A DNA stretch of 64,000 nucleotides from Gammaproteobacteria bacterium. Its GTDB lineage: Bacteria; Pseudomonadota; Gammaproteobacteria; Steroidobacterales; Steroidobacteraceae. The position numbers and the translations under genes are program-made. The notes below the pieces were generated by a model. The model saw nothing but the letters and a program-made list of their open reading frames with translations, made no database searches and was not told the origin of the DNA. The stretch covers positions 1 through 64,000 of the forward strand of contig JAJPKM010000026.1 of NCBI GenBank assembly GCA_021323735.1, given 5' to 3'. Below, one piece after another: positions 15,626-35,680 of the stretch (within the stretch, counting starts at the first letter, position 1; each line of letters opens with the position of its first letter).

Positions 15626-18600
15626 ATGAACGCCGTCGCAGATTTTGCCCACGCAGCGCGACATCCCGGGGGGAAACAGGCGGAGCCGCGATTGCGCGAA
15701 ATTCCGTACAACTACACCTCGCTGGCCGACCGGGAGATCGTCATCCGGCTGCTGGGAGAACCGGCGTGGGATACGCTCGATGGGTTGCGCAGCGAGCGGC
15801 GCACCGGCCGATCGGCGCGCATGCTGTACGAAGTCCTGGGCGACATGTGGGTGGTCGATCGCAACCCCTACCTGCAGGATGATTTGCTCGACAACCCGAA
15901 GCGGCGCCGCCAACTCATTGCAGCCATGCAGCATCGCCTATCCGAAGTGGAAAAGCGCCGCGATGGCGCGGATGAGGCGCGCCACGCCAAAGTCGGAGAA
16001 TTGCTGCGGACGGCGCTTACGGCCGTGGAGCGATTCGAACGGCAATTCACCGCAATCGGCGTCAAGCGCAAGCATGCGCGGCGCCTCCTGCTCCGGCATA
16101 CCCATGCCGACAACATCCGCTTCGATGCATTCTCGCGCGTCTCCCATGTCACGGATGCCACCGATTGGCGGGTCGAGTTGCCCTTCGTCGTGCTCATGCC
16201 CGATACGGAAGCCGAAATTCCCCTTCTGGCGCGTGATTGCATCGAACTGGGTCTGACCATCATCCCGCGCGGGGGCGGTACCGGCTACACCGGCGGCGTC
16301 GTGCCGCTCACACCGTGGTCTGCGGTGATCAATACGGAAAAGCTCGACAGGTTAGGTCCGGTCGAGCACGTTGCGTTGCCCGGCCACACCGCGACGACCG
16401 CCACCATATTCTCCGCCGCCGGGGTGGTGACCAGGCGGGTGAGCGAAGCGGCGGAAAACGCGGGGTTGGTCTTTGCGGTCGACCCGACCTCTGCCGACGC
16501 ATCCTGCATCGGCGGCAACATTGCCATGAATGCCGGCGGCAAAAAGGCGGTACTGTGGGGCACGGCCGTGGACAACCTGGCGTGGTGGCGCATGGTGGAT
16601 GCGCAGGGCAATTGGCTCGAAGTCACCCGCCTGAACCACAACTTGGGCAAGATTCATGATGCGCCGCTCGCGAGTTTCGAATTGGTTTGGAAGGACGGTT
16701 CGAAGGCGCCGGAACACGCGGCGGTGTTGCGCAGCGAGCGTCTCGCCATCGAGGGCGCCAAATTTCGCAAAATCGGCCTGGGAAAAGACGTCACCGACAA
16801 ATTCTTGGGTGGATTGCCCGGGGTACAGAAAGAGGGCTGCGACGGGTTGATCACCGCGGCGCGCTGGATCCTGCACCGCATGCCTAAGCACACCCGGACC
16901 GTGTGCCTGGAATTCTTCGGCCAGGCACGCGATGCCATACCCAGCATCGTCGATATCACTCAGTTCCTCGAATCGAATGCCAAGGCGACGGGAACGTTGC
17001 TGGCCGGCCTCGAGCATTTGGACGAGCGGTATTTGCGGGCGGTCGGCTACAGCACCAAATCCAAGCGCGGCGCGCTGCCCAAGATGGTGCTGCTCGGCGA
17101 TATCGTGGGCGAGGACGAAAGCGCGGTGGCCGCCGCCACATCGCATGTCGTGCGCCTGGCCAACGCCCGCGCGGGCGAAGGCTTCATCGCCGTCAATGCC
17201 GAGGCGCGGCAAAGATTTTGGCTGGATCGCGCCAAGACCGCTGCCATCGCCAAACACACCAACGCCTTCAAGATCAACGAGGACGTGGTCATTCCCTTAG
17301 GTAGGTTGGGTGAATACACCGATGCCATCGAGCGCATCAACATAGAACTTTCGATCCGCAACAAGCTCGATTTGCTCTGCGCCTTGGAAGAATACTTCTC
17401 CGCCGACGACACTGCCGGCGGCACGGCGGTCAGCGCTCCGGTCAACGCTCCGGTCAACGCTTCGGTCAGCGCTTCGGTCAGCGTCTCAGGCGCAGCTTCC
17501 GGCGGCACCTCGAGCCGAACTGCGGCCGGGGCTACCGATGGCACTGCGGCTGCCGATGCAGCCCGGGCTCAGGAGGCCTGCGCAGTGATCGCTCACGCCC
17601 GCACGCAGTGGCAATATCTGCTCGACAACATGGATGATGCAGAGAGCGATGAGGGCAGCGTGTTCGATCGGCTGCAGAATCGCAGCATTCGAGTGAGTTG
17701 GAAGACCGAAGTACGGGAAAACCTGGCGCGAATATTCGTGGGCGGCGCCTTTGCCCCGATTTTGCAGCATTGCGATGCGGTCCATCGGCGCATCCTGCAG
17801 GGCCGGGTGTTCGTCGCCCTACACATGCACGCCGGCGACGGCAATGTGCACACCAACATTCCCGTCAATTCTGACAACTATGCCATGCTGCACACCGCGA
17901 ACCGCACCGTGGCGCGGATCATGGACATCGCCCGCAGTTTGAACGGCGTGATATCCGGCGAACATGGCATCGGTATTACGAAGCTGGAATATCTTTCCGA
18001 CGCCGAACTTGCCGCCTTTCGCGACTACAAGGATCGGGTCGATCCGCATGGCCGCTTCAACAAGCTGAAGCTGATGCCGCAAGGCGATCTGCGCCGCGCC
18101 TACACCCCGAGCTTCGGACTCCTGGGACACGAATCCCTGATCATGCAGCAGTCCGACATCAGCACCATATCCGATGCCATCAAGAACTGCCTGCGCTGCG
18201 GCAAGTGCAAACCGGTTTGCGCCACGCACGCACCACGCGCAAATCTGCTGTACTCGCCCCGCGACAAAATCCTCGCGACGTCGCTGCTCATCGAGGCATT
18301 CCTTTACGAAGAACAGACGCGACGCGGAGTCTCGATCCGGCATTGGGATGAGCTCTCGGATGTTGCGGATCACTGTACGGTCTGCCACAAATGCGAATCG
18401 CCCTGCCCGGTCGGAATCGACTTCGGGGATGTGTCCATGGGCATGCGGGATCTGCTGCGCCGCATGGACAGGAGGCGCTTCAACTTGGGCACCGCCGCGT
18501 CGATGTTCTTCCTCAACGCCACCAACCCCCAGTCGATCAAGTTGACTCGGAAATTGATGATCGATTGGGGTTACAAGCTGCAGCGCGCCGGCAATCGCGC

Positions 18601-19600
18601 GCTCAATACATTCGCCAAAGCGCAAGTTCAGCGGCCACCGGCCACGACCGGAAGAGCGCCGATCAGAGAACAGGTGATTCACTTCGTGAACAAGCGCATG
18701 CCGGGCGGACTACCGAACCGCACCGCCCGCGCGCTTCTCGACATCGAGGACAGGAACTACGTACCCATCATTCGGGATCCGGTCAAGGTCAACGGCGAAT
18801 CGGAGGCTGTGTTCTACTTCCCGGGTTGCGGCTCCGAACGTCTGTTTTCACAGGTGGGACTCGCCACTCAGGCCATGTTGTGGCACGTGGGCGTGCAGAC
18901 CGTGCTGCCGCCGGGGTATCTATGCTGCGGCTATCCGCAACGAGGCACCGGGGAGTTCGCCAAGGCCGAGAAAATCATCACCGACAACCGCGTGTTGTTC
19001 CACCGGGTGGCGAACACACTCAACTATCTCGATATCAAAACGGTGGTGGTGAGTTGCGGCACCTGTTTCGATCAACTGCAGGGATATGAGTTCGGGAGTA
19101 TATTCCCCGGGTCAAAGATCATGGACATCCATGAGTACCTCCTGGAGAAGGGGGTGCGCTTGGAGAACATCACCGGCACGCGCTACATGTACCACGACCC
19201 CTGCCATTCACCGATGAAAAAGTACGATCCTCTGCATGTCGTGAACACGCTGATGAACAGCGGACAAAACGGCACCATCCCCAAGAACGAGCGCTGCTGC
19301 GGCGAGACAGGCACCCTCGCCGTCACCCGCCCTGACATCTCCACGCAGGTGCGTTTTCGCAAAGAACAGGAGGTGCGTATCGGCGTCGACGAAATCCGCG
19401 CCGCAGGCCACTCGGGTGCGGTCAAAATTCTCACTTCTTGCCCCTCGTGCCTGCAGGGACTGAAGCGCTTCGAGGACGATGCCGACATGGATGCGGATTA
19501 CATCGTGGTGGAAATCGCCAAGAATTTGCTCGGCCCCGACTGGCTGCAAGACTATGTAAGGCGCGCCAACACCGGCGGCATCGAAAGGGTTCTGGTTTAG
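15626..19600 (+). CDS. Multidomain FAD/Fe-S oxidoreductase with DUF3683 N-terminus
   Basis: A 1324-residue fusion. An N-terminal DUF3683 block ([22 protein letters not shown] and [16 protein letters not shown]) is followed by a GlcD-like FAD-binding domain ([12 protein letters not shown], about residue 214) and an FAD-oxidase C-terminal domain ([14 protein letters not shown]). Two ferredoxin-type 4Fe-4S motifs follow ([11 protein letters not shown] near 855 and [11 protein letters not shown] near 917). Two CCG/heterodisulfide-reductase-like domains close the protein (FPGCGSERL with LCCGYP, then VSCGTCF with RCCGETG and SCPSC). This arrangement fits a D-2-hydroxyacid dehydrogenase passing electrons to the quinone pool; the substrate is unknown. 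An Ala/Ser/Val-rich linker at about residues 598-650 comes from a 12-bp minisatellite. Confidence 0.9.
17428..17487 (+). repeat. In-frame 12-bp minisatellite, five units
   Basis: Five consecutive 12-bp units of the form GGTCARCGCTYC run from 17428 to 17487 (the last ends GTCTC). They encode Val-Ser/Asn-Ala-Pro/Ser repeats inside the DUF3683 oxidoreductase. Because 12 is a multiple of 3, unit gain or loss would change linker length without breaking the frame. Confidence 0.9.
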
Positions 19601-19604
19601 CAGC

Positions 19605-20996
19605 ATGTCAGACGTATTCCGCCCAGACGATGCCATGGCACAGCCCGCAAAAATCCCGCCTCCAGCCGGCGGCAGTGGAGCGGCCGAACAATGCGATGTG
19701 GCGGTGATTGGCGGAGGTCCCGCCGGCAGCACGGCGGCGACCCTGCTCGCCAAGCGCGGCTACAAGGTGATCGCTCTGGAAAAGGCGCATCACCCGCGTT
19801 TCCACATCGGCGAGTCGCTGCTGCCCATGAATCTGCCGGTATTCGAACGGCTTGGCGTGCTCGATAAGGTGCGCGCACTCGGCGTATTCAAGCCCGGCGC
19901 CGATTTCGAGGCGGATAACGACACCGGCTACAACACCTTCGCCTTCTCGAGGGCCATCGGCAACAGTCCTCCGCATGCCTACCAGGTTTGGCGCCAGGAT
20001 TTCGACAAAATGCTGTATGACCATGCACGCGACTGCGGCGCCGATGCCCGCGAGGGGCATGAAGTCATCAAGATCGACCAACCGGGTCCGCGCGACACAC
20101 GGCTCGAGGTTCGCACCGATGCAGGCCGCACCTACGGCATTCAGGCACGCTACTTAGTCGATGCCAGCGGGCGCGATGCCTTCCTGTCCGCCCGGAAAAA
20201 GCTGCGCCGCAAGAACGACCGGCATCAGAGCGCCGCCATTTTCGGACACTTTCGCGGCGCGCAGCCGCGCCCGGGCGAGGACGCCGGCAATATCAGCATC
20301 TACCGCTTCGAGCACGGCTGGATGTGGATGATCCCGCTGCCGGACGGCGTCATGAGCATCGGCGCCGTCTGTTGGCCCGAATACCTGAAGCAGCGCAAGG
20401 GGCGCACCACAGAGTTTCTCCTGGAAACGCTGCACCAGAATGCGGGACTGCGGCAGCGAATCGAGCACGCCGAACTCATCGGCGAAGTGCGAGTCACCGG
20501 CAACTACTCCTACGATTCGACGCGGATGGGCGGACCGGGTTGGGTGCTGGTGGGCGATGCGTTCGCATTTCTGGACCCGGTCTTCTCTTCCGGCGTCTAT
20601 CTGGCCATGAGCGGTGCCGAGCAGGCGGCGGTGGTGGTGGACGCCGCGCTGCGTGAGCCGCGGCGTGAATCGGCGCTGTTGCGCAAGCTCGAAAAGCGCC
20701 AGCGCGCCGGCATGTCGCGATTTGCATTCTTCATCTATCGATTCAACGGCCCGGTGATGCGTCAAATGTTTCGCCAGCCGCGCAACAGCTGGCAGCTGGA
20801 ACAGGGCGTGATCTCCATGCTGGCGGGGGATCTTTTCGACACGCCGAAGGTACTGCGGCGGCTGCGGCTGTTCAAAGTCGTCTACCTCATCGCCGGCCTG
20901 CGCGACTGGCGGCACTGGCTACCCGCTCATAGATATCGGCTGGCGCAGGCCCGCGCACAGTTCACCGGCGGCAACACGCCGCTGGACAAAGTTTAG
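19605..20996 (+). CDS. Flavin-dependent halogenase-like FAD oxidoreductase
   Basis: A 463-residue flavoprotein with the Rossmann motif DVAVIGGGPAGSTAA (residues 31-45) and EKAHHPRFHIGESLLPMN. It carries both signatures used to define flavin-dependent halogenases: WxWxIP (WMWMIP, 239-244) and FxxPxxSxG (FLDPVFSSG), plus a Lys in VFKPGADF (Lys96) where halogenases keep the catalytic lysine. Many proteins of this group in type III PKS clusters are annotated only as oxidoreductases, so halogenation is not assured; hydroxylation or quinone formation is also possible. It starts 4 bp after the preceding stop; an alternative ATG is at 19635. It is convergent with the ketosynthase gene. Confidence 0.85.
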   Translation: MSDVFRPDDAMAQPAKIPPPAGGSGAAEQCDVAVIGGGPAGSTAATLLAKRGYKVIALEKAHHPRFHIGESLLPMNLPVFERLGVLDKVRALGVFKPGADFEADNDTGYNTFAFSRAIGNSPPHAYQVWRQDFDKMLYDHARDCGADAREGHEVIKIDQPGPRDTRLEVRTDAGRTYGIQARYLVDASGRDAFLSARKKLRRKNDRHQSAAIFGHFRGAQPRPGEDAGNISIYRFEHGWMWMIPLPDGVMSIGAVCWPEYLKQRKGRTTEFLLETLHQNAGLRQRIEHAELIGEVRVTGNYSYDSTRMGGPGWVLVGDAFAFLDPVFSSGVYLAMSGAEQAAVVVDAALREPRRESALLRKLEKRQRAGMSRFAFFIYRFNGPVMRQMFRQPRNSWQLEQGVISMLAGDLFDTPKVLRRLRLFKVVYLIAGLRDWRHWLPAHRYRLAQARAQFTGGNTPLDKV

Positions 20997-21011
20997 ACCA
21001 CACTGACGGAT

Positions 21012-22253
21012 CTAGGGCCGCGGCACGCCGCATGCGGCGACCAACACTGCGTTTGTGCCGCCGAATGCAAAGGAGTTCGACATGACGGTTCGCAGTGGCA
21101 CGCCTATCCGCGCCCGCCCCGCGACATAGTCAAGATCGCAATCGGGATCCGGCGAATCCAGATGCATCGTCGGCGGCACGATACCGCGCTCCAGGCTGGC
21201 GACCGCAATCACGAACTCCAGCGCCCCAGAGGCGCCCAGAAGGTGTCCATGCATGGATTTCGTCGAACTCACGGGCACCTGATAGGCACGCGCCCCGAAG
21301 ATTTCCTTCAGAGCGGCTGTCTCGACGACATCATTTTGCAGCGTCCCGGTGCCATGCGCATTGACGTAATCAATCGCGTCGGGATGCACGCCGGCCGAGC
21401 TCAACGCCGCGCGCATCGCGCTTGCCTGGCCCTCAACCGTCGGGCGCGTGATATGCGCGGTGTCGGTCGTCAATCCATAGCCGGACAGTTCCGCATGGAT
21501 CGGCGCGCCGCGGGCAACGGCGTGACTCCACTCTTCGAGAACCACGAATGCCGCACCCTCGCCGAGCACCAAGCCTGTCCGCGTGCCGGCAAAAGGACGA
21601 CACGAGGCTGACGGGTCCTGCGGATCCTCCGTCGCCAGTGTGCGCATGGCCTCCCATGCGCGCAGGACGCCGAACGTGAGCGGCGCCTCAGCGCCGCCTG
21701 CGAGCATCACGTCCGCATCGCCGTACCGAATCTTGCTGGCCGCCTCCCCTATCGCCACCGCCGAGGACGAGCAGGCCGTCGAGTAGGTGAGGTTGGGTCC
21801 GCAAAGCCCATGGTCGATGCCGATCCACGACGCCGGCGCGTTCGACATTGCCGTCAGTACGCTATACGGTTTGACGCGATCCGATTGCAGCGCGTAAATG
21901 GTTTGATAGCCCTCATCGGTCGATTCGGCGCCGCCCATGGCCGTCCCTACGCAAACTCCGCAACGTTCGCGCCGCTCGCCCGCGAAGTCGAGTTTCGCAT
22001 CCGCGATCGCCTGCGCCGAGGCGACCAGCGCCAGTTGACTGACGCGATCCAGCAAGCGCAGCCGCGTCAGCGGGAAATGCATGTTTCCGTCGAAGTCGAC
22101 CGCCGCGCCAATCGGAGATTTCAGCCGCTCGACGAGCGGCGGTGCCAGGCGTCTTACGCCGGACCGGCCGGCCACCAGGTTGGTGAACAGCTCGTCGACG
22201 GAGTTTCCGAGCGGCGCGATCACGCCGAGCCCGGTAATCGCAACGCGACGCAT
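21012..22253 (-). CDS. Beta-ketoacyl-ACP synthase (FabF-like ketosynthase)
   Basis: A 413-residue condensing enzyme of the KAS II family. The catalytic triad is intact: Cys161 in YSTACSSSAVAIG, His300 in NAHGTGTLQND and His335 in STKSMHGHLLGASG, with the C-terminal glycine loop NSFAFGGTNAVLV. The start is the ATG at 22253 (MRRVAITGLGV); GTG at 22259 is possible. It follows the ACP stop by 7 bp and is third in the minus-strand set type III PKS, ACP, KS. That placement suggests it builds or loads an acyl-ACP starter for the type III PKS rather than serving housekeeping fatty-acid synthesis. Confidence 0.92.
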   Translation of the reverse strand: MRRVAITGLGVIAPLGNSVDELFTNLVAGRSGVRRLAPPLVERLKSPIGAAVDFDGNMHFPLTRLRLLDRVSQLALVASAQAIADAKLDFAGERRERCGVCVGTAMGGAESTDEGYQTIYALQSDRVKPYSVLTAMSNAPASWIGIDHGLCGPNLTYSTACSSSAVAIGEAASKIRYGDADVMLAGGAEAPLTFGVLRAWEAMRTLATEDPQDPSASCRPFAGTRTGLVLGEGAAFVVLEEWSHAVARGAPIHAELSGYGLTTDTAHITRPTVEGQASAMRAALSSAGVHPDAIDYVNAHGTGTLQNDVVETAALKEIFGARAYQVPVSSTKSMHGHLLGASGALEFVIAVASLERGIVPPTMHLDSPDPDCDLDYVAGRARIGVPLRTVMSNSFAFGGTNAVLVAACGVPRP

Positions 22254-22260
22254 CGCCACG

Positions 22261-22548
22261 CTACGAGCGCTGTTTCGGGAGCAGATCCTCCCCCGCGGTA
22301 GCGCGCGCCGCCGGCTGATGGGCGAGCAATCCGTCGATGTAGGCGACGACATCGCTGACGGTCAGCAAATCGGACGGCGTGTCGTCCCGGATCTTGACGC
22401 CAAAGCGGTCCTCGATCTTGAACATCAGTTCGAGCAAGTCGAGCGAATCGACGCCGAGCGCATTGAGCTCCGCCGTGGGAGCCAGTTGCTCACGCGTGAG
22501 TTTGAATTCACGGACCAAAATGTCCTGTAGTGCCTCGAGCGTGCTCAT
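22261..22548 (-). CDS. Acyl carrier protein dedicated to the PKS cluster
   Basis: A 95-residue acyl carrier protein. The phosphopantetheine attachment motif is GVDSLDLLELMFKIEDRFGV, with Ser35 as the modified residue, followed by the acidic recognition helix. A 15-20-residue Ala/Arg-rich tail after YIDGLLAHQ makes it longer than housekeeping AcpP. The ATG at 22548 fits the ACP fold; the frame remains open upstream but that part overlaps the PKS gene 3' end and is not ACP-like. It is 40 bp after the type III PKS gene and 7 bp before the ketosynthase gene. Confidence 0.92.
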   Translation of the reverse strand: MSTLEALQDILVREFKLTREQLAPTAELNALGVDSLDLLELMFKIEDRFGVKIRDDTPSDLLTVSDVVAYIDGLLAHQPAARATAGEDLLPKQRS

Positions 22549-22588
22549 GGGTTTTTCTCGGAAAACATGGTTGGATACCGGCCGACCG

Positions 22589-23647
22589 TCACTCGACGGC
22601 AAGCAACGCGCCGTGACAGGTGAATCCTGCGCCGAATGAAGACATCCACCACCACCCGCCGGGCGCGGCGTCGGCAAGCGCAGCATCGAGCACGAAGTAG
22701 ACGAATGCACTGCTCAGGTTGCCGTAATCGCGCAGGGCGTCGCGGCTATAGCGCAACGCCTGCGGATCCACTTTAAAGCGGTCCTCGAGCGCCAGCAACA
22801 CGTCGCGGCCGCCGGCATGCATGATCCAGCCGGTTATCTGGTCGCGCGTCAGACCGGCGCGCGACAACGCGGTCGCGAGCACTTCATCGGCGTGCTGCGC
22901 GGCCAGCCGCGGTACGGCGCGAGTCAACACGTTGCGCAACATGCCGCCGCGGTGTTGGAAGCGCAGCGCCTCGCGTGCGTCCGGGTTGGTCAGCGAACTC
23001 GTTTCGCGCCACTCCACATTGCGCCGGCCGGCGGGACGCCTCTGCGACAGAACTGCCGCGCCGGCACCGTCGCCGAACAGACAGGCGCTGATCAATACTC
23101 CAGGATCATCGTCGAGATACATCGCGGCGCTGCATACCTCGACACAGATCGACAGCACGTGCTCACATTGCCGGGCGCCGAGCAGCGCGTTGGCCAGTTG
23201 CCAGTTCGGGAGCGCGCCGGCGCATCCCTGCCCCACCAGATCGAAACCGAGTACATCGGAGCGCAGTCCCAGCCGCTCGATGACGTAACCGCTGAGACCC
23301 GGGCAGAGGTTGCCGGTACAGGTCGACACGACGACCGCGTCGATCGCCGCCGGAGCGAGCGCCGCTCGATGCAACGCGGCCGTTCCGGCCTGCCCCGCAA
23401 GGCGGGGCGCATGCGCGGCGAAGCGCCTGTGCAAGGTGTCAGGGTCGATGGCGAATACTTCATCGAGCGAGTCGAGGGCAAGCCAGCGGGACTCGATGCC
23501 GTTTTCCCGCCGCAGCACCATCTTCGCAATGGCGTGCGAGCGTGTATCGAGGCGGCCGTACCAGTCGGAAGCGGCGAACGCATCCCAGCATTCCGCCTTC
23601 GTGTAGCGGTGTTCGGGAAGCGCGGTGCCAATGGCATTCAAGTACAT
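22589..23647 (-). CDS. Type III polyketide synthase (chalcone/alkylresorcinol synthase-like)
   Basis: A 352-residue thiolase-fold condensing enzyme. The type III PKS triad is complete and in type III wording: Cys142 in FDLVGQGCAGALPN, His277 in WIMHAGGRDVLLALE and Asn310 in DYGNLSSAFVYFVLD, with the C-terminal glycine loop SSFGAGFTCHGALL. A FabH enzyme would instead show HQAN and NTSAAS, so type III PKS is preferred. The enzyme should extend an acyl starter with malonyl units and cyclise it to a resorcinol, pyrone or similar ring. A strong ribosome site (GAGGGGG) lies 5 nt before the ATG. The product cannot be read from sequence. Confidence 0.9.
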   Translation of the reverse strand: MYLNAIGTALPEHRYTKAECWDAFAASDWYGRLDTRSHAIAKMVLRRENGIESRWLALDSLDEVFAIDPDTLHRRFAAHAPRLAGQAGTAALHRAALAPAAIDAVVVSTCTGNLCPGLSGYVIERLGLRSDVLGFDLVGQGCAGALPNWQLANALLGARQCEHVLSICVEVCSAAMYLDDDPGVLISACLFGDGAGAAVLSQRRPAGRRNVEWRETSSLTNPDAREALRFQHRGGMLRNVLTRAVPRLAAQHADEVLATALSRAGLTRDQITGWIMHAGGRDVLLALEDRFKVDPQALRYSRDALRDYGNLSSAFVYFVLDAALADAAPGGWWWMSSFGAGFTCHGALLAVE

Positions 23648-23688
23648 TCATCCCCCTCGTGCTCTTGGGGTAAATCAATATGGAGCCT

Positions 23689-23720
23689 GGATGCATCCGT
23701 GCGGACGTACCGTATGGTAC
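23689..23720. promoter_or_regulatory. Palindromes in the divergent PKS / exporter control region
   Basis: The 269-bp gap between the divergent type III PKS and DHA2 exporter genes holds a perfect 10-bp palindrome GGATGCATCC (23689-23698) and, 8 bp on, GTACC-GTAT-GGTAC (23707-23720). Paired palindromes in a shared divergent promoter are typical of a repressor site. No regulator gene is adjacent. The rest of the gap shows no coding signal. Confidence 0.4.
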
Positions 23721-23916
23721 AGCACTCATGCGATTCACTTCGCCGTTTTACGCCAACGGCCGCACAGAGAGCAAAAACCCACCGCCGGACGCGCGAAATC
23801 GACACACGACCAACCTGTGGACCCGCGCTATTTGCGCAACTTGCCGTTGCCTCTGGTAAGTTGCGTTCTGAGTTGCGATCAATGTATCCATTCAGTTTTC
23901 AGTGCGCCGGGTAAAG

Positions 23917-25521
23917 ATGGCAATACCTTCCACCGTTGCCGTTGATGTCGGTCCAGCGACATGGATCGGTTATCTTGCGCTTTGTCTCGGCATGTTCATG
24001 GCCATCCTCGATGTGCAGATCGTCGCCAGCTCTTTGCCCGACATCCAGTTTGCCCTGCATATTGCGCCCAATCATCTCAGCTGGATTCAAACCGCCTATC
24101 TTATTGCCGAAGTGGTCGCGATCCCTCTAACCGGCTGGTTGACACGGTTGATGTCGCTGCGCGGCCTGTTCGTGGCCGCCATCATCGGCTTTGCCGCGTC
24201 GAGCGTGGGCTGCGCCGCAAGCCACCATTTCGAAACGCTGCTGCTTTTTCGCATTGTCCAAGGATTTTGCGGGGGCGCCCTCATTCCCATCGTCTTTACT
24301 TCCGTGTTCACGATGTTCCCCGTAGGAAAACATGTCTTGGCGACGACCATCGGCGGCCTGTTCGCCATGCTGGCGCCTACGATTGGACCGGTTCTCGGCG
24401 GATATATCACTGAAAACTACTCATGGCACTGGCTTTTTCTCATCAATGTCCTGCCGGGATTCGCGGCCGCGGCGGTGGCTGCCTGCCTCATTCGCATCGG
24501 AAAGCCGGACTTAAGATTGCTGGCGCGGCTGGACTTGCCGGCGCTGATGCTCATCGTCGCCTGCCTTGCCAGCCTCGAGCTGGCGTTGAAACAAGGGCCC
24601 AGGCATATATGGAATGACGGTCTCATCGTCTCGCTCGTGGTTGTATGCCCCATCGCCGGAGTTTTCGCCATCCGCCGCTGTCTTTCGTCGCCGGAGCCGA
24701 TCATCGATGTCCGGTGCTTTGCGGACCGCAATTTCAGTATGGGATGTTTCTACAGTTTTGTGCTGGGCATGGGTTTGTTCGGTTCGGTCTACATCACGCC
24801 GCTTTACCTCGGCTTCGTCAGGCAACACACCCCGTTTGAAATCGGCGAAATCATGATTGTCATGGGCGCGGCGCAGCTTGCGATGGCCCCCTTTGCCGCC
24901 ATGGCGGCCAGGAGATTCAACCCGCTGTTACTGACGGCAATTGGCTATGGCGTCTTTGCGGCCGGCTTGGTCGGCGACGGCTTCATGACCTACGACACCG
25001 ATTTTGACGAGCTGCTGTGGCCGCAAATTCTGCGTGGCGCGGCCGTACTGTTCTGCCTGTTGCCGACCACCAGCTTGGCGCTTGAAGGGCAGCCGATCGC
25101 GCGGATGCCAAACGCCAGCGGATTGTTCAATCTGATGCGCAATTTGGGCGGTGCCATCGGCATCGCCCTGATCGACACCGTACTGGAACAGCGCGCGCCC
25201 ACACATGTCGCACACTTGGTTGCCAGGCTTCAAGCGGGAGACATAGCGGCAGCGCGCATCGTCGGCATACCTCTGTCCCTCTTCAAGAATGCGCTGCTTG
25301 GGCCCATCGACCAGGCGACCAAGGATCTGGTAAGGCCGCTGGTCAATCGTGCGGCGCTGGTCATGTCGTTCAACGAGGCATGGCTGATGCTGGGGACAAT
25401 CTTTGTCGTCGCGCTCATGGCGGTGCCTTTGATGCGGCGGATACCCATGGCCGCTAACGCGCAGATGGAAGGCCCGGGCGCCGCGCCGAGTGAATCACCG
25501 CGATGCCGCCAAGAAGATTGA
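23917..25521 (+). CDS. DHA2-family multidrug/metabolite exporter (EmrB/QacA type)
   Basis: A 534-residue major facilitator protein with about 14 hydrophobic segments. It has the DHA2 motif C region (GGLFAMLAPTIGPVLGGYITENYSWHWLFLIN) and the motif D1 region LDVQIVASSLPDIQ in the first helix. It would export a small hydrophobic compound by proton antiport; divergence from the type III PKS gene makes the cluster product a natural candidate. The ATG at 23917 is preferred over GTG at 23902. Its last 68 bp overlap the 3' end of the convergent UbiE-like gene, and the C-terminal tail (about 25 residues) is not membrane-like. Confidence 0.9.
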   Translation: MAIPSTVAVDVGPATWIGYLALCLGMFMAILDVQIVASSLPDIQFALHIAPNHLSWIQTAYLIAEVVAIPLTGWLTRLMSLRGLFVAAIIGFAASSVGCAASHHFETLLLFRIVQGFCGGALIPIVFTSVFTMFPVGKHVLATTIGGLFAMLAPTIGPVLGGYITENYSWHWLFLINVLPGFAAAAVAACLIRIGKPDLRLLARLDLPALMLIVACLASLELALKQGPRHIWNDGLIVSLVVVCPIAGVFAIRRCLSSPEPIIDVRCFADRNFSMGCFYSFVLGMGLFGSVYITPLYLGFVRQHTPFEIGEIMIVMGAAQLAMAPFAAMAARRFNPLLLTAIGYGVFAAGLVGDGFMTYDTDFDELLWPQILRGAAVLFCLLPTTSLALEGQPIARMPNASGLFNLMRNLGGAIGIALIDTVLEQRAPTHVAHLVARLQAGDIAAARIVGIPLSLFKNALLGPIDQATKDLVRPLVNRAALVMSFNEAWLMLGTIFVVALMAVPLMRRIPMAANAQMEGPGAAPSESPRCRQED

Positions 25522-26251
25522 CCCACTGCGTTTCGCCGAACCCCGCTGCGTCGATGCGCTTTGCCAGGGCAGGTTGATCGGGAAATTTTCGGATGCTTTC
25601 GGCCAGATATCGATAGGCGCCGCCATCCTTGGTGATCCATTGCCCGAGCGGCGGCATCACTATGCGGCAGTAAGCGTCAAACAGGGGCTTCAGCCCGCGT
25701 CGAACGCCGGAGGTAAATTCAAGGCAGTAAAAATGCCCGCCGGGCCGCAAAACACGCGCCGCTTCGCGCAGCGCCCGGTCGATATGCGTGACATTGCGCA
25801 GGCCGTAGGCAATGGAGTAGGTGTCAACGCTGCCATCGGGCAGCGGCAAGGTTTCGGCGTTGCCCGTCATCCATTCGATGCTGGAAACGCCCTTTTCGCC
25901 GGTCATTTTTGCGCGGCCCGCTTCGAGCATGGCGGGATTGAGATCGCAAACGACGATCCTGGCCTTACCGTGTGTGCGTCTGGCACAACGCAACGCGATA
26001 TCGCCCGTTCCGCCAGCCACGTCGAGAATATTCTGCCCTGCCTTCGGGTTCATCAGCGCGACCAGGCGATTCTTGAAGAACCGGTGCAACCCGGCGGACA
26101 TGACATCGTTCATCAAATCGTATCGCCAAGCGACCGAAGCGAAGACATTTTGCACCAGAAGGGTCTTTTCCTCCGGCTTGACGCGCCTCGCCCCAAACCA
26201 CTCGGATTCCGGATTGGTCTCGGCGGAGGATTCGTGTTCTATTTGAGGCAT
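25454..26251 (-). CDS. UbiE-like C-methyltransferase
   Basis: A 265-residue SAM-dependent methyltransferase of the UbiE/MenG family, which C-methylates the ring of ubiquinone or menaquinone precursors. Motifs: FASVAWRYDLMNDVMSAGLH, SAM motif I LDVAGGTGDIAL, CDLNPAMLEAGR, NAETLPLPDGSVD, YGLRNVTHIDRALREAARVL and RYLAESIRKFPDQ. The start is the ATG at 26251. It stands without ubiJ or ubiB, inside a polyketide cluster, so it may be either the respiratory quinone enzyme or a paralogue acting on the cluster's ring product. TATAGT lies exactly 7 nt before the ATG with no ribosome site, suggesting a leaderless transcript. Confidence 0.88.
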   Translation of the reverse strand: MPQIEHESSAETNPESEWFGARRVKPEEKTLLVQNVFASVAWRYDLMNDVMSAGLHRFFKNRLVALMNPKAGQNILDVAGGTGDIALRCARRTHGKARIVVCDLNPAMLEAGRAKMTGEKGVSSIEWMTGNAETLPLPDGSVDTYSIAYGLRNVTHIDRALREAARVLRPGGHFYCLEFTSGVRRGLKPLFDAYCRIVMPPLGQWITKDGGAYRYLAESIRKFPDQPALAKRIDAAGFGETQWVNLLGGIAVIHSARRPGLPSAR

Positions 26252-26353
26252 GGCACCAACTATAATCGCAAACCATGGGAAAGTAGCGCCATATCGCTTG
26301 TGCCAGTCCGGTAAAAGCAGCCGTTGAAGTTTCACCCAACACGGGCATTCCGC

Positions 26354-27151
26354 ATGAAGCATGATTTCAGTCGACGCAGCACGCAGACCGAATTGATGGA
26401 CACCGAACCGCTGAGCTGCGCCGCCTTCCATGCTTATTTACTCGACCTCACCGCCCTCAACATCTATACCCTGACCTATCGCCCCACCCTGCAATGGCTG
26501 CGCCGCGCGCTGATCGCAGGCCAGCCGCCACAACCCGTGTCGGTTATCGATGTCGGCAGCGGCGGCGGCGACATGTTGCGCCGGATATGGAAATGGGCCG
26601 CAAAACGCAAGATCAACACCGATCTCGTCGGCGTCGATCTCAATCCGTGGTCGAAGCAGTCGGCGGAAAAGTTGACGAGCGGCATGCCCATTCGCTTTGA
26701 AACCTCCGATATTTTCGACTTCCACCCCGATCGCCGCGCCGATTTCATCATCAGCTCTCTATTTGCACATCATCTGACGGACGATGAGGTGATTCGTTTC
26801 ATCCGATGGATGGACGCGCATGCGGTACATGGTTGGTTCATCAACGATCTGCATCGGCATCCCCTGCCTTATGCCTTCATCAAGTACTTCACGCGTTTGT
26901 TTGGTTTTAATCGGTTGGTTCAGCATGATGCGCCGCTGTCGGTTGCGCGCGCGTTCGTCATGGCCGATTGGCGCCGATTGTTAATGGCGGCCGGCATCCC
27001 CATGGAGCGAATCCGCATCACGTGGTTCTTTCCCTTCCGCTACGGCATTGCCTGTCAGGCGCGGACCCGTGATCAAGCGAATGCCGCCGCCAAACTTGAT
27101 GTAGGACCAGAACCAGTTGAGAAGCGTCGCAACGCGATTTCTGACGCCTAA
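26354..27151 (+). CDS. Class I SAM methyltransferase of the type III PKS cluster
   Basis: A 265-residue methyltransferase with SAM motif I VIDVGSGGGDMLRR, the acidic motif II VGVDLNP and a motif IV-like ADFIISSLFAHHL. The N-terminal LTALNIYTLTYRPTLQWLRR and the helical C-terminus recall methyltransferases encoded beside bacterial type III PKS genes. In Streptomyces SrsB methylates an SrsA-made phenolic lipid and SrsC is a flavoprotein hydroxylase, so an O- or C-methylation of the polyketide is inferred. The start is uncertain (ATG 26354, ATG 26396 or TTG 26324). The last 30 or so residues, after RYGIACQA, are translated from the antisense of the NDH-2 gene and look acquired. Confidence 0.8.
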   Translation: MKHDFSRRSTQTELMDTEPLSCAAFHAYLLDLTALNIYTLTYRPTLQWLRRALIAGQPPQPVSVIDVGSGGGDMLRRIWKWAAKRKINTDLVGVDLNPWSKQSAEKLTSGMPIRFETSDIFDFHPDRRADFIISSLFAHHLTDDEVIRFIRWMDAHAVHGWFINDLHRHPLPYAFIKYFTRLFGFNRLVQHDAPLSVARAFVMADWRRLLMAAGIPMERIRITWFFPFRYGIACQARTRDQANAAAKLDVGPEPVEKRRNAISDA

Positions 27152-29242
27152 CATAAAACCTATGTGCACGACGCCCCACAGCCACCATGCAGGTGCGCCC
27201 CACAGTTTGAAAGCACCAAAATCTGCGACGGCGGCCTTGCGCCCGATGGTGGCGAGGCTGCCGAGGTGTCGATAGCGGAACGGCGGCAGAGAGGCCCGGC
27301 CATCGATGAGAGCGCGGATCTGCTTGGCCACGTAAGCGCCTCCCTGTTTGGCGGCGGGAGCCAATCCAGGAACGGGTTGGCCATTCCACGCGTTGCTGGC
27401 CACCGTGTCCCCGACGGCAAATACATTGCTCATCCCGGGCACCCGTAGATCTTCGCCGACGACTATGCGGCCCGCCGGATCTGACGGCGCCTTCAGCCAC
27501 ATCGCGGCCGGCGATGCCGTGACGCCCGCCGCCCAGAGGACGGTGCGCGCCTCGATACGTTCATCGCCGAACCCAACACCGCGCTCATCGATATGGTTCA
27601 CGCGGCTCTCAAGGCGGACTTCCACGCCCAACTTCGTAAGCTCGCGCTGCGCAATTCGCGACAGGCGTTCGGAAAAACTCGGCAGCAACCGCGGGCCGGC
27701 ATGTACCAGGATGATGCGTGCATGGGCTGGATCAAAAGTCCTGAAGTCCTGATTCAATCCAAATCGGGCTAGTTCCGCGATGGCACCGGCGAGTTCCACG
27801 CCCGTAGGGCCGCCGCCGACAATCAGGAAGGTCAACAACGCCGCCTTCTCCGACTGATCGATGCTCTCCTCGGCGCGTTCGAAGGCCGTCAAGATTCTCC
27901 CGCGAAGGTCGAGGGCGTCCTCAACATACTTGAGCCCCGGCGCGTGGCATGCCCACTCATCCTTGCCGAAGTAGCTATGGGTGGCACCGGTGGCGAGTAC
28001 CAAGTAGTCGTACGGAATCTCGCGGCGCTCCGTAAGCACCAGCCGCTTCTGCGTATCTATCCCGGTGACCGTGCTCAACAACAACTTCGTGGCGGGGGCG
28101 TCTCGGAAGATTTGCCGCGTCGGCACGGCGATGTCGCCCGGGGACAGCGCGGCGGTGGCGACCTGGTAGAGCAAGGGTTGAAAAAGATGAAAGTTGTTTC
28201 GGTCGATCAGGGTGACTTTCACGTTAGCGTCCCTGAGCGCTTGTGCACAGCGCAGGCCGCCGAATCCCGCGCCGACGATGACCACTCGAGGCCAATTCCG
28301 CGAAGCCAGTTCCATGGCACTGGGAGTGGAAAAATGGCGGCTTTGCCACCGCTTCGCCAGAACATCGATGGCCAGCGCGCCGCCCCCATGTGTGGCAAGT
28401 ATGGCCAGAAGCATCAATAGGTAGATTGAATCGCTGAGGCGGGGATCGGCGACCGAGTATGCGAATAGGCCAAGCAGCAACAGCAAGGCAACTTGCCGCG
28501 TGCCAGCGCCCAATATCAACGTAATGCCGCCCATCAGCGCGCCAATCGTTGGCACCCGCGTGGCGACGTCCAAGGGCAACCACCTTTCTGCGCTCGTACC
28601 GAGCCATGGTCGCAAGTCCGCCGAGGCGGCGACAATCAGCGCCACGGCCAGCCATAGACGTAACGTCATGAGGTACCACGGCGTGGCGGTGGACCTCAGC
28701 CATTGGGACAGTCGAATCGCGGCCGGAATGAGCGGTATGGCGCTGTCCGCGAGGCCGCGACGCAGCAGATGGTCGAGCGAGATCGGACCTGCGCCATGGA
28801 TGACATACCAACAAAATAACGCAATCCAAAACAGCTGGGTGTCGAAAGGCTCGAAGCGAAATTGCGTGATGGCGGCAAGTATCAGCAGCGGCAAGGACGC
28901 GTAGCGCGTCATGAACCCCAGCGCCAGCAATATGGCACAGATCGAGTCGGCGCCCGCGCTCAGATACGCCGACACCGTCGGCGCGAGCAGCGGGAAGGGA
29001 TTCTGCTCATCGGCAACCTGTAGGGTCGCCGTCCAATGCATGAGTTCCTGGACGCCAAAGGAGAAAAACAGTCTCGCGATCCACAGACGAATCAGTAGTT
29101 CCACGTAGGGCCATACGAGTCTATGAGCCAACAAATTCCAGAAGCTCACGAGCGACCGCACGAAGGCGAACCGTGCAAGCCAGAATCGCGACCATCCCAT
29201 CACATCAAGTTTGTTGTGCATGGCTAAAAGACCTAGAGACAC
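26981..29242 (-). CDS. DoxX-like membrane domain fused to type II NADH:quinone oxidoreductase
   Basis: A 753-residue fusion. Residues about 45-300 form two DoxX-like hydrophobic modules (for example SICAILLALGFMTRYASLPL and ITLILGAGTRQVALLLLLGL). From residue 318 a complete NDH-2 flavoprotein follows: FAD motif VVIVGAGFGGLRCAQAL, quinone-site region FHLFQPLLYQVATAALSPGDIA, NAD motif FLIVGGGPTGVELAGAIAEL and second FAD contact NVFAVGDTVA. It should pass electrons from NADH to quinone without proton pumping, anchored by the DoxX part. The start is GTG 29242 or ATG 29221. It follows potI by 15 bp. Its C-terminal 56 residues overlap the convergent methyltransferase gene. Confidence 0.88.
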   Translation of the reverse strand: MSLGLLAMHNKLDVMGWSRFWLARFAFVRSLVSFWNLLAHRLVWPYVELLIRLWIARLFFSFGVQELMHWTATLQVADEQNPFPLLAPTVSAYLSAGADSICAILLALGFMTRYASLPLLILAAITQFRFEPFDTQLFWIALFCWYVIHGAGPISLDHLLRRGLADSAIPLIPAAIRLSQWLRSTATPWYLMTLRLWLAVALIVAASADLRPWLGTSAERWLPLDVATRVPTIGALMGGITLILGAGTRQVALLLLLGLFAYSVADPRLSDSIYLLMLLAILATHGGGALAIDVLAKRWQSRHFSTPSAMELASRNWPRVVIVGAGFGGLRCAQALRDANVKVTLIDRNNFHLFQPLLYQVATAALSPGDIAVPTRQIFRDAPATKLLLSTVTGIDTQKRLVLTERREIPYDYLVLATGATHSYFGKDEWACHAPGLKYVEDALDLRGRILTAFERAEESIDQSEKAALLTFLIVGGGPTGVELAGAIAELARFGLNQDFRTFDPAHARIILVHAGPRLLPSFSERLSRIAQRELTKLGVEVRLESRVNHIDERGVGFGDERIEARTVLWAAGVTASPAAMWLKAPSDPAGRIVVGEDLRVPGMSNVFAVGDTVASNAWNGQPVPGLAPAAKQGGAYVAKQIRALIDGRASLPPFRYRHLGSLATIGRKAAVADFGAFKLWGAPAWWLWGVVHIGFMLGVRNRVATLLNWFWSYIKFGGGIRLITGPRLTGNAVAEGKEPRDADSLHGDAGRH

Positions 29243-29257
29243 CGTGTATAGTCGGGA

Positions 29258-30079
29258 TCAAAGGGCATCCAGCTTGGCCCGCCGCGCCATCCACAGGCTC
29301 ACGCCGACGACCATCGTGCTCACCACGCCGAGCGTGATGGTTGCCAGCACGTTGATTTCGGGGCTGACCCCGAGGCGCACTTTTGAAAACACCACCATGG
29401 GCAGGGTGCTGCTGCCGGGGCCCGAAGTGAAACTCGATATCACCAGGTCATCCCAGGACAGCGTGAAGGCCAGGAGCCAGCCGGACAAAATGGCAGGGAA
29501 GATGATCGGCAGGGTGATGACGAAAAAGACCTTGAGGGGACGGGCACCTAAATCCATCGCCGCCTCCTCGAGCGCCGTGTCGAAACTCGCCATGCGCGAA
29601 TTGACGATGACCGTCACGTAGGCCATGGAAAAAGTCATGTGCGCAATGGTCATGGTGGTGATTCCGCGTCCCGCGGGCCAGCCGATGAGCTCCTCCAAGG
29701 CGACGAACAGCAGCAACAATGAAAGTCCCGTGATCACCTCGGGCATCACCAGCGGCGCCGTCGTCATCGCATTCAGGGTAAACCGCCCCCGGAACTGGCT
29801 GAATCGAGCCAACCCAAACCCGGCGAGCGTGCCTAAGATGACGGAACCGGAGGCATTGATGACCGCCACTTTCAGGGAAATCCACGCAGCGTCCAGGACC
29901 TCCTCGTTATGCAGCAGTGCGTAGTACCACTTCAACGTCGGCGAATTTGCACCGTCCCAGACCGTCACCAATTTCGAGGCGTTGAAGGAAAACACCACCA
30001 TGGACAGGATCGGGATGTATAGAAATGCAAACCCGAGTCCGATGCAAGTGAGGATGAAGAACGAGCTGCGATAGTTCAT
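29258..30079 (-). CDS. potI: Putrescine ABC transporter permease (PotI-type)
   Basis: Inner-membrane permease of 273 residues with six hydrophobic segments. The binding-protein-dependent transport loop for the ATPase reads EEAAMDLGARPLKVFFVITLPIIFP, the EAA motif. It forms the channel with PotH. The ATG at 30079 overlaps the potH stop by four bases (ATGA), a typical coupled permease pair. The N-terminus (MNYRSSFFILTCIGLGFAFLY) fits the family; an upstream in-frame start is rejected because it lies inside potH. Confidence 0.93.
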   Translation of the reverse strand: MNYRSSFFILTCIGLGFAFLYIPILSMVVFSFNASKLVTVWDGANSPTLKWYYALLHNEEVLDAAWISLKVAVINASGSVILGTLAGFGLARFSQFRGRFTLNAMTTAPLVMPEVITGLSLLLLFVALEELIGWPAGRGITTMTIAHMTFSMAYVTVIVNSRMASFDTALEEAAMDLGARPLKVFFVITLPIIFPAILSGWLLAFTLSWDDLVISSFTSGPGSSTLPMVVFSKVRLGVSPEINVLATITLGVVSTMVVGVSLWMARRAKLDAL

Positions 30080-30939
30080 CGAGCGCCCGCCGACTCGCGC
30101 GCCTGTACGCTCTGGTACCACATCATGAATGGAACCAGCAGCAGCAACAACAGGATGGCCACCGCGCTGGCCACCGGCCAGGCGCGGTTCGCGAAAAACT
30201 CATCCCACAACACCCGCCCGATCATCAGCGCATTGGGACCGCCGAGCAGCGCCGGAATCACGAACTCGCCGACCGCCGGAATGAACACCAGCATGGACCC
30301 GGCCAAGATCCCATTGCGCGACAGGGGCAAGGTGATCTTGTAAAACGCCTGCCAGGGGCGGCAGCCCAAGTCCTCGGCCGCCTCGAGCAGCTGCCAATCC
30401 ATTTTTTCCAAATTGGCGTACAGCGGCAGGATGAGGAAGGGCAGGTAGGAGTACACGATGCCCACATACATGGCGAAGGGCGTGTACAGCATCGTCAAGG
30501 GCTCGTGAATCAGCCCCAGCGACAGCAACACATTGTTGATGACTCCATTCGCCTTCAATAAACCGATCCAGGCGTACACCCGCAGCAGCAGCGAGGTCCA
30601 AAACGGCAGTATCACCAGCAGCAGCAGCACATTGCGTACCGCAGGCTTGGCCCGTGCGATCCCATAGGCCATCGGATATCCAATGATCAAGCACATCAGG
30701 GTGGAGAGGAATGCCACCTTGATGGAGTTCGCAAAGGCGTGGAGGTACAGGGAATCGGTGAACAGAAACGCGTAGTTGTCGAAGTTCAGCTTGACGGCTA
30801 GCGAGTGCTTGCCGACCCACTCCAGCAACGGTTTGTAGGGTGGAATCGCCAGAGCGACATCCGAGAAGGATATCTTCAGGACGATGATGAACGGCACGAC
30901 GAAGAACAGCAGCAGCCAGAGGTACGGCAGCGCGACCAC
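30076..30939 (-). CDS. potH: Putrescine ABC transporter permease (PotH-type)
   Basis: First permease of the putrescine importer, with six hydrophobic helices and the EAA loop LEAAEDLGCRPWQAFYKITLPLS. The annotated GTG at 30939 (VALPYLWLLLFFVVPFI) leaves little cytoplasmic N-terminus. Homologues carry roughly ten more residues, and the frame stays open upstream with only a CTG (30972) available, so the true start is uncertain. It lies 55 bp after potG. Confidence 0.92.
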   Translation of the reverse strand: MVALPYLWLLLFFVVPFIIVLKISFSDVALAIPPYKPLLEWVGKHSLAVKLNFDNYAFLFTDSLYLHAFANSIKVAFLSTLMCLIIGYPMAYGIARAKPAVRNVLLLLVILPFWTSLLLRVYAWIGLLKANGVINNVLLSLGLIHEPLTMLYTPFAMYVGIVYSYLPFLILPLYANLEKMDWQLLEAAEDLGCRPWQAFYKITLPLSRNGILAGSMLVFIPAVGEFVIPALLGGPNALMIGRVLWDEFFANRAWPVASAVAILLLLLLVPFMMWYQSVQARESAGAR

Positions 30940-30994
30940 CAGTCCGCGGCCAGTGATCCCGGCTCGGCGCAGCCACGCGGCGAGACTTAAGGAG

Positions 30995-32155: not shown

Positions 32156-32158
32156 CGG

Positions 32159-33292: not shown

Positions 33293-33317
33293 CCGACGCT
33301 TCCTCTATTTTTTTGAC

Positions 33318-33333
33318 CCGCTATTTATAGCGG
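33318..33333. other. Intercistronic hairpin between puuA and potF
   Basis: A perfect hairpin CCGCTA-TTTA-TAGCGG sits in the 46-bp gap between puuA and potF. In the direction of transcription it is followed by an A-run, not a T-run, so it is unlikely to be an intrinsic terminator. It may stabilise or separate the highly expressed binding-protein message from the upstream enzyme genes. Confidence 0.5.
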
Positions 33334-33338
33334 ATTGA

Positions 33339-34676: not shown

Positions 34677-34679
34677 ATC

Positions 34680-35435: not shown

Positions 35436-35680
35436 GTTTAAAATATTAAACGTCCGGATGGACGACTAAACTTTGATAACGACAGTATTACACCACACCG
35501 ACCACACCCCGTGCCGATTCCGCGCGCAGAAAGAGCCAAGATTTAGGCATTTCCAGCACTTAGGCGTGCTTTGTGCGATGCAACAACATTGCCTTTTTAT
35601 GGAAAACCTCTGTAGGCTCACAGGCACTTCATCCTGTCAATAGCCATAAAATTTTAAACACTTTCGAACCGAAGAACCCG
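35436..35680. promoter_or_regulatory. Divergent puuD / puuB control region with a shared AT-rich motif
   Basis: The 245-bp gap between divergent puuD and puuB contains an inverted repeat GTTTAA-AATA-TTAAAC (35436-35451) touching the puuD start. It also holds a hairpin CGTCC-GGAT-GGACG (35451-35464). Near puuB, on the other strand, GTTTAAAATTTT occurs (35648-35659), which matches 11 of 12 bases of GTTTAAAATATT at the puuD end. The shared motif near both promoters is a candidate binding site for a polyamine regulator such as the PuuR-like protein at 42838-43386. Confidence 0.45.

Follow-up and report, generated by a model that had tools for sequence, protein, structure and literature searches.

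Type III polyketide synthases (PKSs) are usually described as fed by CoA and free of carriers; CoA thioesters are given as their general substrates, with ACP-bound starters accepted by GCS, SCO7671, ArsB and ArsC (PMC6274091, in the sections available). In the ars operon of Azotobacter vinelandii, a carrier domain passes the acyl chain directly to ArsB or ArsC and a long-chain phenolic lipid is formed; Gcs and SCO7671 of Streptomyces coelicolor likewise accept acyl-ACP, and the available portion of the source reports no dedicated operon pair of ACP and ketosynthase (KS) for them (PMC6274091). In the cylindrocyclophane cluster, the type III PKS CylI, which makes an alkylresorcinol, is supplied by a free ACP (CylB) and by CylD and CylH, condensing enzymes that act upstream of it (PMC8086630, excerpt). 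Alkylresorcinols are also made by type III PKSs encoded together with methyltransferase and oxidoreductase genes, as in the hidABC hierridin operon and in planctomycetal methyltransferase-oxidoreductase-PKS operons, and planctomycetal PKSs yielded alkylresorcinol in a heterologous host; the accessible part of that paper describes no ACP-KS pair (PMC10896814).

Here, a window of 64,000 nucleotides, i.e. the whole stretch of gammaproteobacterial DNA that was analysed, was found to contain a short operon coding for a type III PKS, a dedicated ACP and a KAS II-like KS. Since carrier-fed type III PKSs are already known, this operon with a free ACP and a KS is a variant of them. In the ars operon the carrier is one of the domains of the fatty acid synthase ArsA, whereas in the window ACP (95 aa) and KS are free-standing proteins; where the excerpt on the cylindrocyclophane cluster mentions type I PKSs and a halogenase, CylC, the window has a single KAS II-like KS. 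With the hidABC and planctomycetal operons the locus shares the set of type III PKS, methyltransferase and oxidoreductase, a likeness of gene set. The srsABC genes of Streptomyces reportedly form a set of PKS, methyltransferase and flavoprotein hydroxylase, in which no ACP-KS pair is known; the window differs in being without a hydroxylase of the PKS-linked kind. The locus belongs to a recurring operon that gives a type III PKS its own ACP and KS, and it suggests that an acyl-tailoring pair of the NodFE kind can be reused for another lipid. Three small proteins would suffice to test the hand-over from carrier to type III PKS, and the operon is present in named isolates. No study of this operon was found among the matches listed from open-licence PMC papers, which does not prove its absence.

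The core consists of the PKS at 22589-23647 (352 aa; Pfam matches Chal_sti_synt_C and FAE1_CUT1_RppA), the ACP at 22261-22548 and the KS at 21012-22253 (413 aa), all on the minus strand and separated by 40 bases (PKS-ACP) and 7 bases (ACP-KS). Since strands alternate across the listed genes, the operon by layout comprises PKS-ACP-KS only. The Cys-His-Asn triad of the PKS (C142, H277, N310) is invariant in an alignment of 31 sequences, made up of the window PKS and those of 30 of the 66 loci described below. The predicted PKS structure (pLDDT 91.9) has the thiolase fold of the chalcone synthase type: the best 50 of 1246 Foldseek matches are all type III PKSs by title, and M. tuberculosis PKS11 is the best of these 50 (TM 0.90-0.91). 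The catalytic residues C161, H300 and H335 of the KS are invariant in seven aligned sequences; its top NCBIfam match is FabF with 435.8 bits, which is under the cut-off of 493.75, and it exceeds the cut-off of the KAS II subfamily PRK07314 (426.9 vs 387). S35 of the ACP is invariant in nine aligned sequences, its NCBIfam ACP matches being below the curated cut-offs. Each of the genes listed in an earlier note on this DNA was confirmed as an intact open reading frame, with the catalytic residues of PKS, KS and ACP retained. Selection acts on the core, as dN/dS since the split from the related locus L011 is 0.12 for the PKS, 0.21 for the ACP and 0.12 for the KS.

Gene content was counted by homology in 66 PKS loci; six peptide patterns taken from the window PKS had served to retrieve them, so that the set is biased towards close relatives. 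The operon PKS-methyltransferase-FAD-ACP-KS is present in 36 of the 66, two further loci have the same genes without the KS, and L011 is PKS-ACP-KS, lacking, like the window, the methyltransferase and FAD genes that elsewhere separate the PKS from the ACP; an ACP accompanies the PKS in 39/66 loci. The ACP-KS pair is absent in 26/66 (PKS-methyltransferase-FAD or PKS-methyltransferase), with too little flank to judge in six rows. In the PKS tree, from which four fragments (L072, L073, L075, L076) were excluded, all 35 KS-bearing rows fall into one clade of 44 rows (support 100/99), and the KS label requires 6 changes, compared with a mean of 17.8 after shuffling (57 rows counted). A second instance of ACP and KS occurs in sphingomonads with a different type III PKS (30-33% identical), in the order ACP-KS-PKS-methyltransferase-FAD in Sphingobium and ACP-KS-PKS-FAD, with a methyltransferase nearby, in Novosphingobium. 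Isolates carrying an ACP-KS-linked type III PKS operon belong to Caballeronia, Paralcaligenes, Azohydromonas and Sphingobium; Paralcaligenes ureilyticus DSM 24591 and Azohydromonas lata NBRC 102462 have the operon of five genes. The proposal of the earlier note that a dedicated KS/ACP goes with the type III PKS is borne out by the 36 loci and L011, by their position in one clade and by the sphingomonad instance, and the conserved PKS-ACP-KS layout provides a dedicated, linked carrier of the Ars/Gcs/Cyl kind. The finding that would have spoken against that note, a neighbourhood conserved in no related genome, does not hold for the core; the five-gene layout including a UbiE-like gene that it named differs from the conserved one, PKS-methyltransferase-FAD-ACP-KS. 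Clusters c5, c7 and c10, considered as conserved partners, were discarded, as they overlie the PKS, methyltransferase and KS genes and are thus antisense shadow ORFs.

A parallel to the pair itself is NodF/NodE of rhizobia, where a dedicated ACP also adjoins a KAS II-like KS; in the window genome a FabF-like copy is located on another contig (C12). The window KS is 44% identical to the KS of a Neorhizobium nod cluster vs 39% to FabF of its own genome, and so appears slightly closer to the NodE-like protein. In a tree of 14 of the 37 locus KSs, it belongs to the beta/gamma operon KS group, and this group and the nod-cluster KSs are sister groups (96/94 and 96/92) which are not grouped together. 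The ACP-KS pair would be expected to work like NodF/NodE, with a KS that is not a member of the nod-cluster group. The genes nodEF are needed for unsaturated acyl chains and set the acyl chain (PMC9048898, in the part available). The difference lies in the acceptor: NodA puts the chain on a sugar backbone, while here a type III PKS would receive it.

On this basis we consider it fairly likely that the type III PKS receives its starter from the ACP-KS pair, which resembles NodFE, and that the resulting resorcinol or pyrone is methylated by the enzyme encoded at 26354-27151 and perhaps exported. A fatty acyl group would be put on the dedicated ACP, and the KS would lengthen the chain or determine how long it becomes, in the manner of NodF and NodE with the acyl chain of the Nod factor; the PKS would then receive the chain from the ACP, add malonyl units and close an alkylresorcinol or alkylpyrone ring. 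The predicted product of the gene set is probably a methylated fatty phenol. The candidate tailoring enzyme is a SAM methyltransferase of 265 aa (26354-27151, plus strand) of the kind found with alphaproteobacterial type III PKSs; it is PRK06202-like (118.5 bits, cut-off 243) and lies on the strand opposite to the PKS, 2.7 kb away. In a tree that used 19 of the 64 locus methyltransferases, it falls into a clade of nine rows (100/100) with plasmid PKS-linked methyltransferases, to seven of which it is 39-44% identical. Its relatives are flanked by a PKS and a FAD monooxygenase in 10/10 cases of a phylum sample, and a PKS link was also seen in 5/5 records examined of the 24 found. It is thus a PKS-linked methyltransferase as in the Hid/Srs type, of a non-native kind and outside the PKS operon. 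No native-type methyltransferase was found in the genome by a search that had no positive control. The core has lost its usual methyltransferase and FAD genes and the gene set is a mosaic, in which the methyltransferase at 26354-27151 may have been captured from a PKS cluster of the alphaproteobacterial type as a replacement for the lost native one. Methylation of the product, as the earlier note had it, is accordingly a role that the family membership of this second methyltransferase makes credible. Export is plausible only: the DHA2 family MFS transporter at 23917-25521 (plus strand, divergent from the PKS; a GTG start at 23902 is also possible) matches TIGR00711 with 366.5 bits (cut-off 230.2), and homologues adjoin the PKS in L011 (51-53%) and in Methylobacterium oryzae (48%), which speaks for the export claimed earlier, while two of its closest relatives, the two examined, have no PKS nearby.

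A different division of labour, a split type II/type III line, is possible but rather unlikely. In such a line, the KS would condense at least once on the ACP and the unreduced beta-ketoacyl-ACP would pass to the PKS, which would finish the chain and close the ring. No ketoreductase is present among the three core genes or the five genes of the 36 loci, so that the keto group need not be removed. A housekeeping enzyme could still remove it, and the absence refers to the core and the five-gene set. If true, this arrangement would have evolved separately in the beta/gamma operons and in those of the sphingomonads, around dissimilar PKSs.

We regard it as unlikely that the PKS uses ordinary acyl-CoA and that the ACP-KS pair tunes the fatty acid pool or serves another lipid, being linked for co-expression only. 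CoA thioesters are the rule for type III PKSs (PMC6274091, available sections), neither the verrucomicrobial PKS loci nor a second beta group showed an ACP-KS pair, and seven rows inside the ACP-KS clade are without the KS, two of which retain the ACP; relatives within the clade thus manage without the pair. However, the linkage of ACP and KS in one clade is tight and lasting, the pair is found again with the different PKS of the sphingomonads, and ACP-fed type III PKSs are known from the sources cited above (PMC6274091, PMC8086630, both in part), all of which argue for a starter supplied by the dedicated ACP.

It is improbable that 19605-29242 encodes one pathway in which the PKS-made ring undergoes oxidation or halogenation by the FAD protein and two methylations, and enters a quinone cycle with the UbiE-like and NDH-2 proteins, even though all of these genes are adjacent and intact. 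Homology of the window to an empty-site relative (genome G225, locus L107) is interrupted between 20986 and 29274, which places an inserted segment at about 20990-29270 (ends approximate); it includes a DoxX/type II NADH dehydrogenase (NDH-2) fusion at 26981-29242 (minus strand) and excludes the halogenase-like FAD gene beside it at 19605-20996 (plus strand). The FAD protein contains WMWMIP and FLDPVFSSG, instances of the strings WxWxIP and FxDPxFSxG, which we take to be signatures of flavin-dependent halogenases; it matches the Pfam family Trp_halogenase (E 1.9e-25), and in the PDB its top match is to a halogenase (190 bits). The motifs are present in 20/20 P0004-like proteins (the best 20 of its 35 matches) and in none of 57 operon FAD proteins, nor in any of seven PKS-operon FAD proteins, for which reason it was rejected as the operon hydroxylase. 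No FAD hydroxylase of the Hid/Srs PKS-linked type lies in the insert, and within the genome this neighbour comes nearest to the operon-type enzyme, with 25% identity and differing motifs. Its orthologue occupies the same spot in the sister genome G225, which has no island, and G225, G106 and G110, with FAD orthologues of at least 70%, gave no PKS match at E 1e-30 among the genomes listed in the PKS search. The gene is variable at this site, being absent from 6/19 other loci of the genus, in which the genes on either side directly adjoin each other; this would allow joint arrival with the island and later loss in G225. The flavoprotein, to which the earlier note ascribed oxidation or halogenation of the product, is a neighbouring gene product found at this position even where the island is missing. 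A reading of 19605-27151 as one operon was likewise rejected, owing to the alternating strands and the FAD gene at the site without the insert.

The UbiE-like gene of the inserted segment (25454-26251, minus strand) codes for a second, divergent UbiE-family methyltransferase and is an extra copy, as a quinone cycle would have it. It passes TIGR01934 (249.3 bits, cut-off 158.35), but among the 25 families listed it reaches none of the equivalog cut-offs for UbiE/MenG (290.5 vs 351; 242.9 vs 378). Contig C41 carries a copy that does exceed such a cut-off (386.1 vs 378) and is likely the housekeeping one, so that the window gene was dismissed for that role. At E 1e-15, UbiE and NDH-2 had no match in the PKS loci examined and the FAD protein matched only the window's own, which argues against conservation of the UbiE-like gene within the set, as claimed earlier, and against a single pathway. 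A weak UbiE match upstream of the PKS in L071 (39% over 110 aa) falls under this limit.

That the locus is a decaying remnant, which lost methyltransferase and hydroxylase and no longer works, is very improbable: the canonical methyltransferase and FAD genes were not found in the genome and gene origins and strands are mixed, but the catalytic residues are intact and dN/dS is 0.12-0.21 against L011, whose operon is likewise missing both of these genes.

As to the insert as such, no integrase was found by Pfam among the neighbouring genes, and no clear flanking repeat among the repeat families listed (direct, 20 of 40; inverted, 25 of 30). The promoter scan gave 0 vs 2.5 expected by chance, and nine terminators were found vs 8.2 expected by chance. 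Relative to 32 window genes, GC3 z-scores are -1.1 to -2.1 for the MFS, UbiE, methyltransferase and NDH-2 genes and -0.05 to 0.73 for PKS, ACP and KS, a contrast within the insert that is suggestive only.

The type III polyketide synthase (PKS; 22589-23647), the acyl carrier protein (ACP; 22261-22548) and the ketosynthase (KS; 21012-22253), all on the minus strand, belong to a gene set at 19605-27151 that the earlier note had taken for one biosynthetic island in which a KS/ACP pair feeds the PKS. Every gene of this set was located and the catalytic residues of the three proteins are intact: C142/H277/N310 of the PKS (n=31 aligned sequences), C161/H300/H335 of the KS (n=7) and S35 of the ACP (n=9) were kept without exception. 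The top structural match of the PKS model (pLDDT 91.9) was M. tuberculosis PKS11, with a TM of 0.90-0.91 and 28-29% identity.

Relatives came from a scan that took a single genome for each species and yielded 66 loci with PKSs 51-90% identical; a gene was counted towards the operon if it was homologous, on the PKS strand and no more than 6.5 kb away. The order PKS-MT-FAD-ACP-KS, with a methyltransferase (MT) and an FAD monooxygenase gene (FAD) between PKS and ACP, was found in 36 of the 66 loci and, outside this count, on a Caballeronia plasmid; the others carried PKS-MT-FAD (18 loci), PKS-MT (8), PKS-MT-FAD-ACP (2), PKS-ACP-KS (1, locus L011) and PKS alone at a contig edge (1). ACP-KS was not found in the verrucomicrobial relatives or in a second beta group within these loci. 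A PKS tree built from 62 of these 66 loci together with the window placed every one of the 35 KS-bearing rows in a single clade of 44 rows (support 100/99). The KS label (35 rows with and 22 without KS, six short-flank rows being omitted) required 6 changes; 500 shuffles averaged 17.8 and none reached so low a count. This fits a history in which an older PKS-MT-FAD set acquired ACP-KS once and about five losses followed. The dN/dS values between the window and L011 were 0.12 for PKS, 0.21 for ACP and 0.12 for KS; the three genes are still under purifying selection between the two. The core is a real, conserved variant of a known principle, and no description of this operon was found in literature searches of open-licence PMC papers. 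The key inference of the earlier note holds for a dedicated KS/ACP pair with a type III PKS; for the flavoprotein, the UbiE-like protein and the exporter it was either not borne out or stays a possibility.

The window KS is 39% identical to the FabF of its own genome and 44% to a KS from the Neorhizobium galegae nod cluster, where an ACP gene adjoins that for the KS. ACP-paired KSs were set apart from FabF with support of 93/94, which is below the mark of the tool. NodE is a ketosynthase homologue and NodF an ACP homologue, as described in PMC9048898; the N. galegae record does not label its genes nodF/nodE, and reading them so follows from position and that description. The window pair probably works like NodFE, although its KS lies outside the NodE clade. 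Stand-alone ACP-KS pairs were seen on a Xanthomonas sacchari plasmid (L161, 5698-7218), near aminotransferase genes, and on a plasmid of Azoarcus sp. KH32C (L159, 5746-7245), beside an isoprenylcysteine carboxylmethyltransferase family gene. Because no type III PKS is annotated in either stretch, an ACP-KS pair alone does not imply a PKS.

A second instance of the combination was found in sphingomonads, as ACP-KS-PKS-MT-FAD on Sphingobium yanoikuyae pKN1 and as ACP-KS-PKS-FAD on Novosphingobium pentaromativorans pLA3, where a methyltransferase gene lies close by on the opposite strand. Identity to the window was 30-33% for PKS and 40-41% for KS. The KSs of both plasmids cluster with the nod-cluster KS, and that of the window with the KSs of the beta/gamma operons plus a single Azoarcus KS (supports of the two groups 96/94 and 96/92). 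From this distance and the separate KS groups, the ACP-KS pair was probably joined to a type III PKS twice.

In the proposed working, an acyl group carried by the ACP would be lengthened by the KS, and the type III PKS would take over the chain and close a resorcinol or pyrone; step order, product and acyl transfer are all putative. PMC6274091 describes use of acyl-ACP by GCS, SCO7671, ArsB and ArsC, a precedent for such use by a type III PKS, and the hand-over has a precedent in CylB, CylD and CylH, which feed CylI (PMC8086630). For product and methylation, the precedent is planctomycetal PKSs with adjoining methyltransferase and oxidoreductase genes, which lead to alkylresorcinols; when the two G. 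maris genes were supplied together, the product gained a single further methyl group (PMC10896814). Here the second methyltransferase (26354-27151, plus strand) would methylate either the ring itself or its oxygens, with the DHA2 transporter (23902 or 23917-25521, plus strand) as a possible exporter of the product.

The window is a mosaic. The MT and FAD genes usual between PKS and ACP are missing, as they are in L011, and searches of the genome found neither a native-type FAD nor, in a search run without positive control, a native-type MT. The methyltransferase at 26354-27151 shares 20-27% identity with native-operon MTs (20 rows) and 39-44% with seven MTs of alphaproteobacterial type III PKS clusters. 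The tree joins it to these seven at 100/100, in a 9-row clade into which a long Deinococcus row also falls; an eighth MT from the alphaproteobacteria, that of Mesorhizobium, groups with the native kind instead. It had no match in 119 other family genomes at E 1e-10, and distant relatives (29-31%) in 3 of 368 other genomes of the class (E 1e-20). In a phylum sample, relatives occurred in 10 of 397 other genomes (E 1e-30), with type III PKS and FAD monooxygenase genes as neighbours in all ten. The missing native MT, together with this kinship and PKS linkage, suggests that a foreign MT with an equivalent role has taken the place of the native one. On a Mesorhizobium sp. INR15 plasmid (L164), a gene of the cyclopropane-fatty-acid synthase family comes after those for type III PKS, methyltransferase and FAD monooxygenase, with transposase and integrase genes around.

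The halogenase-like FAD protein (19605-20996, plus strand) carries the strings WxWxIP and FxDPxFSxG, as do 20/20 of its kind tested (the best 20 of 35 matches); both are absent from 57 native-operon FAD proteins and from seven of plasmid PKS operons (six alphaproteobacterial, one Deinococcus). Its only match at E 1e-15 in the PKS loci examined was the window's own sequence in locus L145. Relatives were seen at L113 (7369-13706; 46%), enclosed by two KS genes and small ORFs in surroundings that resemble an aryl-polyene locus, and at L110 (8901-11099; 73%), followed by a Polyketide_cyc2 gene. The UbiE-family protein (25454-26251, minus strand) is an extra copy scoring under the equivalog cut-offs; the copy on another contig, C41, is likely the housekeeping UbiE. 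No homologue of UbiE or of the DoxX/NDH-2 fusion (26981-29242, minus strand) was found at E 1e-15 in the PKS loci examined. In L011 and in Methylobacterium oryzae a transporter homologue adjoins the PKS; the two closer Rhizobium relatives examined have no PKS nearby.

In a same-genus genome without the island (G225), both flanks are kept and syntenic with the window, and an orthologue of the FAD gene (83%) directly adjoins the ABC permease gene with nothing of the KS-to-NDH-2 stretch in between. Since homology to G225 breaks off at 20986 and returns at 29274, the insert spans about 20990-29270. The junction between the DUF3683 FAD-linked oxidase gene (15626-19600, plus strand) and the permease gene (29258) is a variable cargo site, with gene content differing between genus genomes. 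Among 19 other genus loci, DUF3683 and permease genes stand side by side without the FAD gene in six and the FAD gene is alone at the site in one (G225); the remaining 12 have a wider gap between DUF3683 and permease genes, or no DUF3683 gene was seen within the stretch examined. The FAD gene is itself an addition at this variable site, so it may possibly have arrived together with the island and been retained in G225 after the island was lost; however, FAD relatives occur in 34 of 120 family genomes (E 1e-40) and, within the order, the PKS in just 4 of 296 genomes (E 1e-30), counts that both include the own genome and come from different samples. Beyond the insert, 29258-36961 encodes two ABC permeases, an ATPase, a binding protein, a glutamine synthetase-like enzyme, a C26 peptidase and a DAO oxidoreductase, which, read from the domains, is likely a cluster for polyamine uptake and use; the counterpart of the glutamine synthetase-like enzyme in the G225 locus (L107) shares 97% identity with it.
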